Positions 18,672 through 25,522 of a DNA stretch of 55,555 nt are shown here, in pieces. The stretch is taken from assembly GCA_002708085.1 (NCBI GenBank), contig PAOU01000011.1, positions 1 to 55,555 on the forward strand, written 5' to 3'. Within the stretch, counting starts at the first letter, position 1, and the number at the start of each line of letters is the position of its first letter. The notes under the pieces were generated by a model. The model was given only the letters and a program-made list of their open reading frames with translations. It made no database searches and was not told the DNA's origin. This stretch comes from Dehalococcoidia bacterium. GTDB lineage: Bacteria; Chloroflexota; Dehalococcoidia; Lucifugimonadales; Lucifugimonadaceae. A program made the position numbers and the translations under genes.

Positions 18672-19742
18672 TTAGTTGGGGTTTACTTGAATATTTTTTG
18701 GAATTTGCTTTACTAAAATGTCAAAAATTATTAATGGATTCACATTCATATCTAGTGTTTTTTTTGAAGACGAAAGATAATTTAACAGAATAAGAGTTTT
18801 TGAAATTGGTATTATAGAAGCAATTTTTTTTGTTTCATCAAAATACTTAGAATAAATAATTTGATGATCTTGATTTGTTTGAATCATTAAAATATCTCTA
18901 CACCAATTTGACCAGCAATCTAATTCGTTTTTTACAGAATCTTTGTTTTTTTTATATTGTCCAGATAATTCATTAGAATATTGTAATTGTTTTGATAAAG
19001 GATTTTTTAATAAATTTAATATTCTTTCAATGGTTTGATTTTGATTGTCTAAAATTATTGGATTTTCTATAATATTAATTGCTTTCCCAAAGCAACCTTG
19101 TGACAGTTTTGCTATAGTACTTAGTTTTTCAGTTTTTTCCGGATAAGTCATTTCTAATAATTTTTCTATGTTTTTAGAAGGTAGAGGAAAAAGTTTATAG
19201 GATTGACATCTTGATTTGATTGTTAAAGGTAAAAAATCTAAAGATTGCACTAATAAAATTAGTAGAAAATTTGGAGATCCTTCTTCTAATATTTTTAATA
19301 AATGATCAATGGATTCTTTTCTTAGTAAATGTGAGTCTTCTACTATAATAACTTGATAATTTCCGTAGAAAGGTTTTATTTGAGATTTTCCTAATATTAA
19401 ATCTCTAACAACACATATTGAAATCACAGTTTGTTTTGTAGTTGGGCCACAACATTTTCTTTCATCATTTTTTTTAGGGTTTGAACATACTGATTCTTTA
19501 TTAATAATTAATACATCAGGGTGATTATTAGAATTAATTCGTTTACATTGGTCACATGAACAATCTTCGACTCCTTTTTCACCTTTACAGTTGATCTCCT
19601 TGGATATATCTAGAGCTAGTGTAGTTTTTCCAGAATTTTTAGGTCCAGAAATAATAATTGAATGTGGTAAAGGATTAGATTTACAGACTTCTTTAAGGCT
19701 GTTAATTACTTTAGGATAACCTAATGTTTGCCAAGAACTAAT
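18672..19742 (-). CDS. holB: DNA polymerase III delta' subunit, apparent ATT start
   Basis: A clamp-loader subunit of 356 residues, 105 longer than the ORF-track entry that begins at an internal GTG (19427). Reading the same frame upstream gives SSWQTLGYPKVINSLKEV, a Walker A loop GPKNSGKTTLA and a zinc-binding cysteine cluster (CKGEKGVEDCSCDQC), exactly the HolB/DnaX N-terminus. No ATG, GTG or TTG occurs in frame before 19427, and a TAA lies just before the ATT at 19742. GGAGG sits 5 bases upstream of that ATT, so I start there. Downstream VIIVEDSHLLRKESIDHLLKILEEG is Walker B-like. It is flanked by lysA and cmk. The gene identity is firm; the start codon is inferred. Confidence 0.9.
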   Translation of the reverse strand: MSSWQTLGYPKVINSLKEVCKSNPLPHSIIISGPKNSGKTTLALDISKEINCKGEKGVEDCSCDQCKRINSNNHPDVLIINKESVCSNPKKNDERKCCGPTTKQTVISICVVRDLILGKSQIKPFYGNYQVIIVEDSHLLRKESIDHLLKILEEGSPNFLLILLVQSLDFLPLTIKSRCQSYKLFPLPSKNIEKLLEMTYPEKTEKLSTIAKLSQGCFGKAINIIENPIILDNQNQTIERILNLLKNPLSKQLQYSNELSGQYKKNKDSVKNELDCWSNWCRDILMIQTNQDHQIIYSKYFDETKKIASIIPISKTLILLNYLSSSKKTLDMNVNPLIIFDILVKQIPKNIQVNPN

Positions 19743-19747
19743 TTAAA

Positions 19748-19752
19748 CCTCC
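19748..19752 (-). promoter_or_regulatory. Shine-Dalgarno sequence for the ATT start of holB
   Basis: GGAGG on the minus strand lies 5 bases before ATT 19742. It follows the lysA stop at 19765. It is one of the strongest ribosome sites in the window and no other start codon is placed to use it. Confidence 0.7.
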
Positions 19753-19764
19753 AGATTTAAAAGT

Positions 19765-21081
19765 TTAAACAAAATGAGAGAGTAAATCTTCATGGGTTTC
19801 TCTTCTTTTTATTACTTGATGATTACCTTTGTTAACTATTATTATAGTAGGCCTGCAGTACATATTATAATTGCTAGACATAGCAATATTATACGCCCCA
19901 GATGTAGCTGAGATAATTAAATCATTATGGTTTAATTTTGGAAGGTAAGTTTCGTTGGATAAAATATCGCCTGATTCACAAAATTTTCCTACTATAGTAA
20001 CTTTTTCTGTAGTTTCTTCTAAAATTTTTGTTACAGGGAATATAGAATATTCTGATTGGTATAACGCAGGTCTAATATTATCTCCCATTCCTCCATCTAT
20101 ACTTACATATTTTCTTACTCCAGGAATATTTTTTATGCTTCCTATTTTATAAATTGCTACTCCTGATCTTGCTACTATCGATCTTCCTGGTTCAACTATG
20201 AGATGAGGTTTAGGTAATGAAAGTTCATCACATTTTTTTATTATTGTTTCAGATATCGCATCTGCATATTCTTTAACACTAGGAGGTTTTTTATCCTTAG
20301 ATGTATAAGTAACAGCAAATCCTCCTCCAGGGTTAAAGATTTTTAAGTTTAAGCCATTATTTCTTTGCTGATGAGCAAATTCTAATACGTAATTTATTGC
20401 GAGGACATACGGTTTTGTCTCAAAAATAGGAGACCCTAAATGAAAATGAATACCTTGTAAGTCTAGGTTAGACATTTTTGTGGTTAATTTTATCGCTTCT
20501 TCAGCTTGTCCTGTTTCAATAGGAAACCCAAACTTAGAATCTAGTGTTCCAGTAGTAGTTAAAATGTGAGTTTTAGGGTCAACACTAGGAGAGACTCTGA
20601 TTAAGACCTTTTGAGTTTTTGATGACTCAGAAGCTATTTTATTTAACAAAGAAATTTCATCAAAACTATCTAAAGTAATTGTTTCGATATCCCAATCTAC
20701 AGCTTGTTTTAGTTCTTCATATGATTTGTTATTACCATGAAAATTGACTTTATTTGAAGGAAATTTTGAATATTGAAGTACTGATAATTCACCTCCTGAG
20801 ACAACATCTATTCCTAGATTTTCATCTTCTAAAATCTTTGTAAGATGTGGACTAGAAAATGCTTTTGAAGAATAAGAAATATGGGAATTAGGATAGGATT
20901 GTTTAAATTCATTAACGAATTCTTTACAGATTTCTCTAATGGTACTCTCATCATATACGTAAAGAGGTGTACCATAGATATTTGAAATTTCTTCTAAATT
21001 ACATCCTCCTATTTCTAAAATTCCCTCTTCATTAACTTGAGAAGTAATAGGAAGTATGTTTTTTATATTTTCATTCAACAT
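19765..21081 (-). CDS. lysA: Diaminopimelate decarboxylase
   Basis: A 438-residue PLP enzyme that decarboxylates meso-diaminopimelate to lysine, the last step of the pathway. The PLP lysine is in SYSSKAFSSPHL (~residue 73). HFHLGSPI matches the barrel segment contacting phosphate, FNPGGGFAVTY is the glycine-rich loop, and GKFCESGD carries the active-site cysteine of the C-terminal domain. It contains a typical ~25-residue N-terminal extension (GILEIGGCNLEEISNIYGTPLYVYD). It lies between mazG and holB in the minus-strand run, and lysC is encoded 6 kb away. Confidence 0.96.
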   Translation of the reverse strand: MLNENIKNILPITSQVNEEGILEIGGCNLEEISNIYGTPLYVYDESTIREICKEFVNEFKQSYPNSHISYSSKAFSSPHLTKILEDENLGIDVVSGGELSVLQYSKFPSNKVNFHGNNKSYEELKQAVDWDIETITLDSFDEISLLNKIASESSKTQKVLIRVSPSVDPKTHILTTTGTLDSKFGFPIETGQAEEAIKLTTKMSNLDLQGIHFHLGSPIFETKPYVLAINYVLEFAHQQRNNGLNLKIFNPGGGFAVTYTSKDKKPPSVKEYADAISETIIKKCDELSLPKPHLIVEPGRSIVARSGVAIYKIGSIKNIPGVRKYVSIDGGMGDNIRPALYQSEYSIFPVTKILEETTEKVTIVGKFCESGDILSNETYLPKLNHNDLIISATSGAYNIAMSSNYNMYCRPTIIIVNKGNHQVIKRRETHEDLLSHFV

Positions 21082-24323: not shown

Positions 24324-24327
24324 GGAG
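24324..24327 (+). promoter_or_regulatory. Shine-Dalgarno sequence for the ATT start of recF
   Basis: GGAG followed by seven bases (ATTTAAA) and then ATT 24335. The ATG overlapping it at 24322 reads only two further codons before TAA in another frame, so the site is best explained by initiation at the ATT. Confidence 0.55.
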
Positions 24328-24334
24328 ATTTAAA

Positions 24335-25522
24335 ATTTTACTTTCTAAAATTTCTCTAAAAAACTTTAGGAATCATGTTGATACTTCTATTGATTTAGCT
24401 CCAGGTTTAAATATATTTTTTGGTTCTAATGGTCAAGGTAAAAGCAATTTTGTTGAAAGCATTTATTTGCTAGCTATTGGAAAAACATCTAGATCATCTT
24501 TTGATCAAGAATTAATTAATTATGAAATCAATTCAGGAGATAATTGTTCAATTAAAGCAATTGGATCAGATGGTCCCATTTTGTTCAATATAGAATTTGA
24601 ATTAAAACAAGATATAAAAAATTCAAATTCTAGTATTGAAGATAATAAGGCATTTAAGTATAAAAAAATCTTAAAAATAAATGGAGCTAAAGTTTCTTTG
24701 AATTCTTTTGTAGGCGTTTTTAATGTTGTTATGTTTGAAGCTAATGATTTAATGTTAATTTTTGGAGCTCCTATATTAAGAAGGAGATTTTTAGATATCT
24801 TAATTTCACAAACTGACATTCAGTATTTGAAAGCTCTTCAAAGATATAATCAGGTTATAAAAAATAGGAATAGAATTTTGAAGAATATTTCTTTAAATAA
24901 TTCTAACTATAATGAGTTAAAATTTTGGACAGATAAATTGATTGAAGATGGAAGTATGATAATGTATTTCCGACATAAAATAATTCAGAATTTATTTCAA
25001 CGTACAAGTATTTTATATGATCAATTATCTATAGAAAATGAAACTTTAGAAATAATATATCATCCTAATTTGAAATACTCAGATGATATTGATTTAAAAA
25101 ATCAATTGATACAAAAAAATGACTATGAAAAATTTATTTTTGAATCTATTGAGAGAAAAAAGAATGATGAATTAAGATATGGAACTTCATTAGTTGGCCC
25201 TCACAGAGATGATTTAGATATAAAATTGTCAGGATTTAATATTTCTAATTATGCTTCTAGAGGTCAAATAAGATCTATAGTATTGGCATTAAAGTTAGCT
25301 GAAGCTGAAATTATTAGTGAAATAAAAGAAAGTGATCCTGTAATTATTTTAGATGATGTAATGTCAGAAATGGATTCAGATAGAAGAAGATTAGTTTTAC
25401 AATTAATTAATAATTATGATCAGGTTTTAATTACAGTTCCAGACAGAAAATTATTAGATCAACCCAATCTGAAGTATTCAAAATTATTTAATGTTAATAA
25501 AGGCAAAATTAATATTTTATAA
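24335..25522 (+). CDS. recF: RecF DNA repair/replication ATPase, apparent ATT start
   Basis: A 395-residue SMC-like ATPase acting in gap repair and fork recovery. The track entry begins at an internal TTG (24467) and would lack the Walker A. Upstream in frame are LLSKISLKNFRNHVDT and GSNGQGKSNFVESIY, aligning residue for residue with the RecF N-terminus so that ATT 24335 sits where Met is expected. No ATG, GTG or TTG occurs between the preceding TGA (24305) and 24467. Other marks are LVGPHRDDLDI, SRGQIRSIVLALKLAE (signature) and VIILDDVMSEMD (Walker B). An alternative is ATG 24322 plus loss of one T, which would read MEIKILLSK. Sir2 follows with no gap. Confidence 0.9.
   Translation: MLLSKISLKNFRNHVDTSIDLAPGLNIFFGSNGQGKSNFVESIYLLAIGKTSRSSFDQELINYEINSGDNCSIKAIGSDGPILFNIEFELKQDIKNSNSSIEDNKAFKYKKILKINGAKVSLNSFVGVFNVVMFEANDLMLIFGAPILRRRFLDILISQTDIQYLKALQRYNQVIKNRNRILKNISLNNSNYNELKFWTDKLIEDGSMIMYFRHKIIQNLFQRTSILYDQLSIENETLEIIYHPNLKYSDDIDLKNQLIQKNDYEKFIFESIERKKNDELRYGTSLVGPHRDDLDIKLSGFNISNYASRGQIRSIVLALKLAEAEIISEIKESDPVIILDDVMSEMDSDRRRLVLQLINNYDQVLITVPDRKLLDQPNLKYSKLFNVNKGKINIL

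Follow-up and report, generated by a model that had tools for sequence, protein, structure and literature searches.

Candidate AUU and AUC start codons of holB and recF in marine SAR202 bacteria

The holB locus and its open frame

We analyzed a 55,555 nt stretch of DNA (the window) from a marine Dehalococcoidia bacterium of the SAR202 group (GCA_002708085.1, contig PAOU01000011.1, forward-strand positions 1 to 55,555). The genome containing it, G000, is 687 kb, 60% complete and AT-rich (30% GC). A sister species of the same genus, G007, whose HolB is 89% identical, served as the comparator. Throughout, ordinary starts are ATG, GTG and TTG, and ATH denotes ATC, ATT or ATA. The window carries holB on the minus strand, directly after a lysA-like gene, and recF 5 kb from holB. 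The features are as follows.

18672..19742, minus strand: holB (DNA polymerase III delta' subunit), 356 codons plus stop from ATT, based on the open frame, Pfam and a 7-species alignment
18674-18672, minus strand: holB stop codon, the end of the open frame
19427-19425, minus strand: internal GTG used by the ORF track, holB codon 106 and the first ordinary start in frame
19742-19740, minus strand: predicted holB ATT start codon, with an in-frame TAA before it; same in G007, and ATT or ATC in 7/7 congeners
19745-19743, minus strand: in-frame TAA abutting the holB ATT, part of the TTTAA spacer
19752-19748, minus strand: Shine-Dalgarno (SD) sequence GGAGG, 5 nt before the holB ATT and kept in 7/7 congeners
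19765..21081, minus strand: lysA-like gene 5' of holB, TAA stop at 19767-19765, 22 nt before the holB ATT
24324..24327, plus strand: SD sequence GGAG, 7 nt before the recF ATT
24335..25522, plus strand: recF, 395 codons plus stop from ATT, based on TIGR00611 and the family start column

The holB frame holds no ATG, GTG or TTG between the TAA and the GTG at 19427, so a standard ORF call drops 105 conserved residues, Walker A included; the TAA itself is in frame with the ATT and thus leaves no possible start further upstream. A sequence-only reading had claimed that a full clamp-loader N-terminus lies upstream of the GTG, and we found it in the full frame, with the Walker A motif GPKNSGKTTLA and cysteines 52, 61, 63 and 66. 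Pfam DNA_pol3_delta2 (PF13177) matched residues 10-186 of this frame (profile 3-159 of 161, 113.7 bits), against profile 90-159 only, under half of the model, at 52.3 bits and with Walker A gone, for the GTG-started protein. The same reading had described the TAA before the ATT and GGAGG five bases upstream, both of which can be read directly in the sequence; the 3' end of the G007 16S rRNA carries GGATCACCTCCT, an intact anti-SD.

The best NCBIfam matches for HolB were delta' models, led by TIGR00678 at 124.3 bits, below its cut-off of 180.6. Because TIGR00678 was nonetheless the top-scoring model and G007 has a separate dnaX-like gene, delta' is still the best name for this gene.

The holB start in the genus and beyond

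We compared the holB start among ten genomes of the genus, seven of which yielded the gene (G000, G002, G003, G005, G006, G007 and G008). Those records that carry a name are MAGs of the SAR202 cluster, Dehalococcoidia or Chloroflexi and come from separate projects. G007 shares its leader with G000, GGAGGTTTAAATT (GGAGG-TTTAA-ATT), and an identical GGAGGTTTAAATTAGTTCTTGG was found in both. The leaders read as follows.

G000 and G007: GGAGG-TTTAA-ATT
G006: GGAGG-ACACA-ATC
G002: GGAGG-AAACA-ATC
G005: GGAGG-AATA-ATC
G008: GGAGG-GAATA-ATC
G003: GGAGG-CTAATA-ATT

The start column held ATT in three congeners and ATC in four, always three codons before an invariant Trp in the 7-species alignment and 4-6 nt after GGAGG, a recurrence that goes beyond chance. 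ATG, GTG or TTG occupied it in 0/7, and no ordinary start adjoined the conserved HolB N-terminus in any of the seven; an in-frame ATG about 16 codons 5' of the G003 ATT lies inside the lysA tail and has no SD. This comparison, proposed as a check by the sequence-only reading, bore out its claim that holB opens at ATT 19742 with 105 residues missed, and removed the alternative it had offered, a point mutation or read error from ATG. ATT and ATG do differ by a single base; however, ATT or ATC stands at the same place in seven species-level genomes, with named records from several projects, and we rejected a sequencing or assembly error or a one-off mutation as having a negligible chance of being correct.

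We also considered translation from the internal GTG, with the upstream frame decayed or separate. No ordinary start codon precedes this GTG in the holB frame, but a protein begun there would lack the Walker A portion of the domain, and G007 lacks a start-type codon at the position of G000 codon 106 (the first common to both is codon 165). Codons 1-105 showed a dS of 0.31, a dN of 0.05 and a dN/dS of 0.17 between G000 and G007, and codons 106-356 a dN/dS of 0.13; the first 35 codons alone gave 0.61, a value resting on 10 differences only. The substitution pattern indicates that the HolB N-terminal codons are under purifying selection, and we rejected the internal start as practically without a chance.

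In the congeners, too, the reading frame preceding holB closes shortly before it. We also weighed a programmed frameshift or stop readthrough from lysA into the holB frame. The last upstream stop is in the holB frame in G002 and G006. In G000 and G007, however, the lysA stop is out of that frame and a further TAA abuts the ATT, and the conserved SD-ATH spacing would be needless for readthrough; we rejected this route as highly improbable. HolB translation thus very probably starts at AUU (ATT 19742-19740), as judged from these sequence comparisons.

Outside the genus, loci read by eye had an in-frame ATG, GTG or TTG upstream of the HolB N-terminus in 24/24 cases, mostly within about 20 codons of it. 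With an ordinary start in reach at all of these loci, the non-ordinary holB start is, at present sampling, specific to this genus. Since the seven congeners represent perhaps three independent lineages, conservation at holB would by itself argue moderately for selection; far stronger support comes from the recF series.

recF and other genes with ATH starts

We scanned 403 G000/G007 ortholog pairs for a shared ordinary start at the conserved N-terminus. About ten genes had none, several of them uncertain, so non-ordinary starts are restricted and a genome-wide relaxation of start codons was rejected. The scan picked out recF of the same window, a feature absent from the sequence-only reading, which covered holB alone. 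Among the roughly 300 ORFs of G005, whose coverage is partial (383 kb), the clear cases were again recF and holB. An SD-based codon enrichment scan had too little sensitivity, since a clear SD is present on only 15-25% of genes.

The first ordinary start of recF is TTG 24467, and a standard ORF call there loses 44 residues with the Walker A region. RecF matched TIGR00611 at 286.3 bits (cut-off 172), and the first position of the profile fell on residue 3 when the protein was started at ATT. A class-wide search found further recF homologs. Within the family, we took as start column the codon lying ten codons upstream of the FRN motif in 34 genomes from 12 genera. This column held ATC in 17, ATT in 12, ATA in 4 and ATG in 1 (ATH in 33/34), whereas the next-highest neighboring column had Ile codons in 14/34. 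An SD sequence (at least 4 nt) stood before it in 33/34 genomes, and in 22 of the 33 ATH-bearing genes the stretch from the upstream stop to the ATH codon was free of ordinary starts. Because the codon series, the SD and the TIGR00611 alignment agree at this column, we conclude from them that it is the recF start codon, with a third base long kept away from G in one family. Genomes from other families of the order had ATG (5), GTG (3), TTG (1), ATC (3), ATT (3) or ATA (2) at this position, that is, ordinary starts in 9 versus ATH in 8; one genome starts one codon later.

Several other genes had ATT in G000, and mostly in G007, with ATG elsewhere where read: folP, pyrD and possibly ino1 and rsmD. 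In folP (G000 C6, L071:14322-15140, minus strand), both G000 and G007 have ATT, in the context GAGG-N5/6-ATT TTA AAA AT, and the other congeners have ATG where readable. For pyrD (G000 C9, L080:6349-7383, minus strand), G000 and G007 lack an ordinary start, and GGAG followed by ATT TAT AAG stands at the expected N-terminus. A 379-codon ino1 candidate (inositol-phosphate-synthase-like by eye; G000 C6, plus strand, about 13088, L055) differs between the sister species, with ATT GGT TCA in G000 and ATG GGT TCT in G007. rsmD possibly also has ATT in G000. Given the sporadic ATT in folP, pyrD and ino1, drift to ATT also happens, and it may account for some of the ATH starts in this AT-rich genome.

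Mutation bias could in principle account for holB as well: AUU or AUC would be a tolerated weak start fixed by such bias, with holB translated mainly by re-initiation after lysA and the codon having no regulatory role. The 22 nt between the lysA stop and the ATT, short gaps that recur in the congeners, the 30% GC of the genome and the sporadic ATT starts all fit this account. It leaves unexplained, however, why ATG, one mutation away, is found in 0/7 congeners, why recF ATH persists in GC-rich genera, where AT bias offers no explanation, and why a strong SD is retained in both holB and recF. We regard it as unlikely.

Proposed IF3-limited translation and known systems

IF3 destabilizes initiation complexes on codons other than ATG, GTG and TTG and represses the infC and Streptomyces sigR starts, non-canonical infC starts being known (PMC5472188); it weighs the third-position codon-anticodon pair (PMC10158994). 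We propose that in this SAR202 genus the strong SD would place AUU or AUC as the holB start, where the initiator tRNA presumably inserts formylmethionine with a third-position mismatch, and that IF3 would disfavor such complexes, so that delta' would be made at a low, IF3-dependent rate. Re-initiation coupled to lysA may contribute to holB translation. For RecF, likewise, a strong SD would compensate for a weak codon and keep the protein at a low, IF3-dependent level across the family. E. coli holds RecF near 50 molecules per cell, and an excess of about 14-fold is toxic via replisome destabilization (PMC10287930); such toxicity would be a reason for a weak recF start.

IF3 is encoded in 9/10 congeners, G000 included. 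In six of them (G001, G002, G003, G004, G006 and G009) no ordinary start precedes the conserved part of infC, and their leaders carry an AGGAG- or GGAG-like sequence, then ATA CCT; G005 has a GTG upstream. ATA or ATC also stands at the infC start in several other genera of the family. In G000 and G007 infC probably starts at TTG (G000 C11, about 99 kb, L110; congeners, L102-L109), and the species of the window may therefore have a weaker IF3 loop. The genome pieces examined yielded no gene with the features of an initiator tRNA; tRNA-Met(CAT) matches in G000 and G007 resembled tRNA-Ile2 or elongator genes and were rejected as initiators.

Overall, we assign a probability of about 0.75 to the reading that the holB AUU or AUC with its SD gives IF3-limited, low-dose translation, a device common to recF in the family and infC in most of the genus. 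It is somewhat more probable than its opposite that IF3-limited dosage is also the reason why the AUU start is kept. Because the same type of start recurs in recF and infC, the pattern looks like a control of dosage selected in a handful of genes and not a one-gene accident; we infer IF3 dependence, low expression and benefit from this pattern. The sequence-only reading had proposed that AUU keeps delta' low or tied to IF3: the AUU start stands, and low or IF3-tied delta' is plausible, with IF3 encoded and infC and recF in the same codon class. More tentatively, and with the odds against it, infC and recF, joined in this genus by holB, might form a small SAR202 translational regulon in which conserved AUU, AUC or AUA starts couple the dose of replication and repair proteins to IF3, kept across the family and partly the order.

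The closest parallel is infC, where an ATH start after an SD is likewise conserved among relatives and missed by gene finders; unlike holB and recF, on which any IF3 control would act in trans, infC encodes IF3 itself and is autoregulated through AUU or AUC. Streptomyces sigR is a second parallel: it does not encode IF3, combines a strong RBS with a non-canonical start that is conserved, is misannotated, and has a canonical start outside the genus (PMC5472188). It differs in that it encodes a sigma factor and its GTC (GUC) start is experimentally proven, whereas the AUU, AUC and AUA of holB and recF are known from sequence. A literature search for non-AUG starts of holB or recF returned no relevant papers. 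E. coli pcnB, an unrelated gene in an unrelated lineage, also has an AUU start, and its product is thought to be harmful in excess. To our knowledge, very few non-IF3 genes are documented with such start codons. By these likenesses, holB and recF would be further cases of known infC- and sigR-type starts, the recF conservation being unusually deep.

Gene finders that allow only ATG, GTG and TTG miss such starts, so the N-termini of HolB and RecF, ATP-binding motifs included, are likely wrong in the gene calls of many SAR202 genomes. Two DNA-maintenance genes are affected, one of them (recF) across 12 genera, and together they offer a natural comparative set for why a start codon stays weak.

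Separately, we observed a large enolase-superfamily-like paralog family across the genus (8-38 matches per genome), in line with the description of SAR202 group I (PMC10444878).
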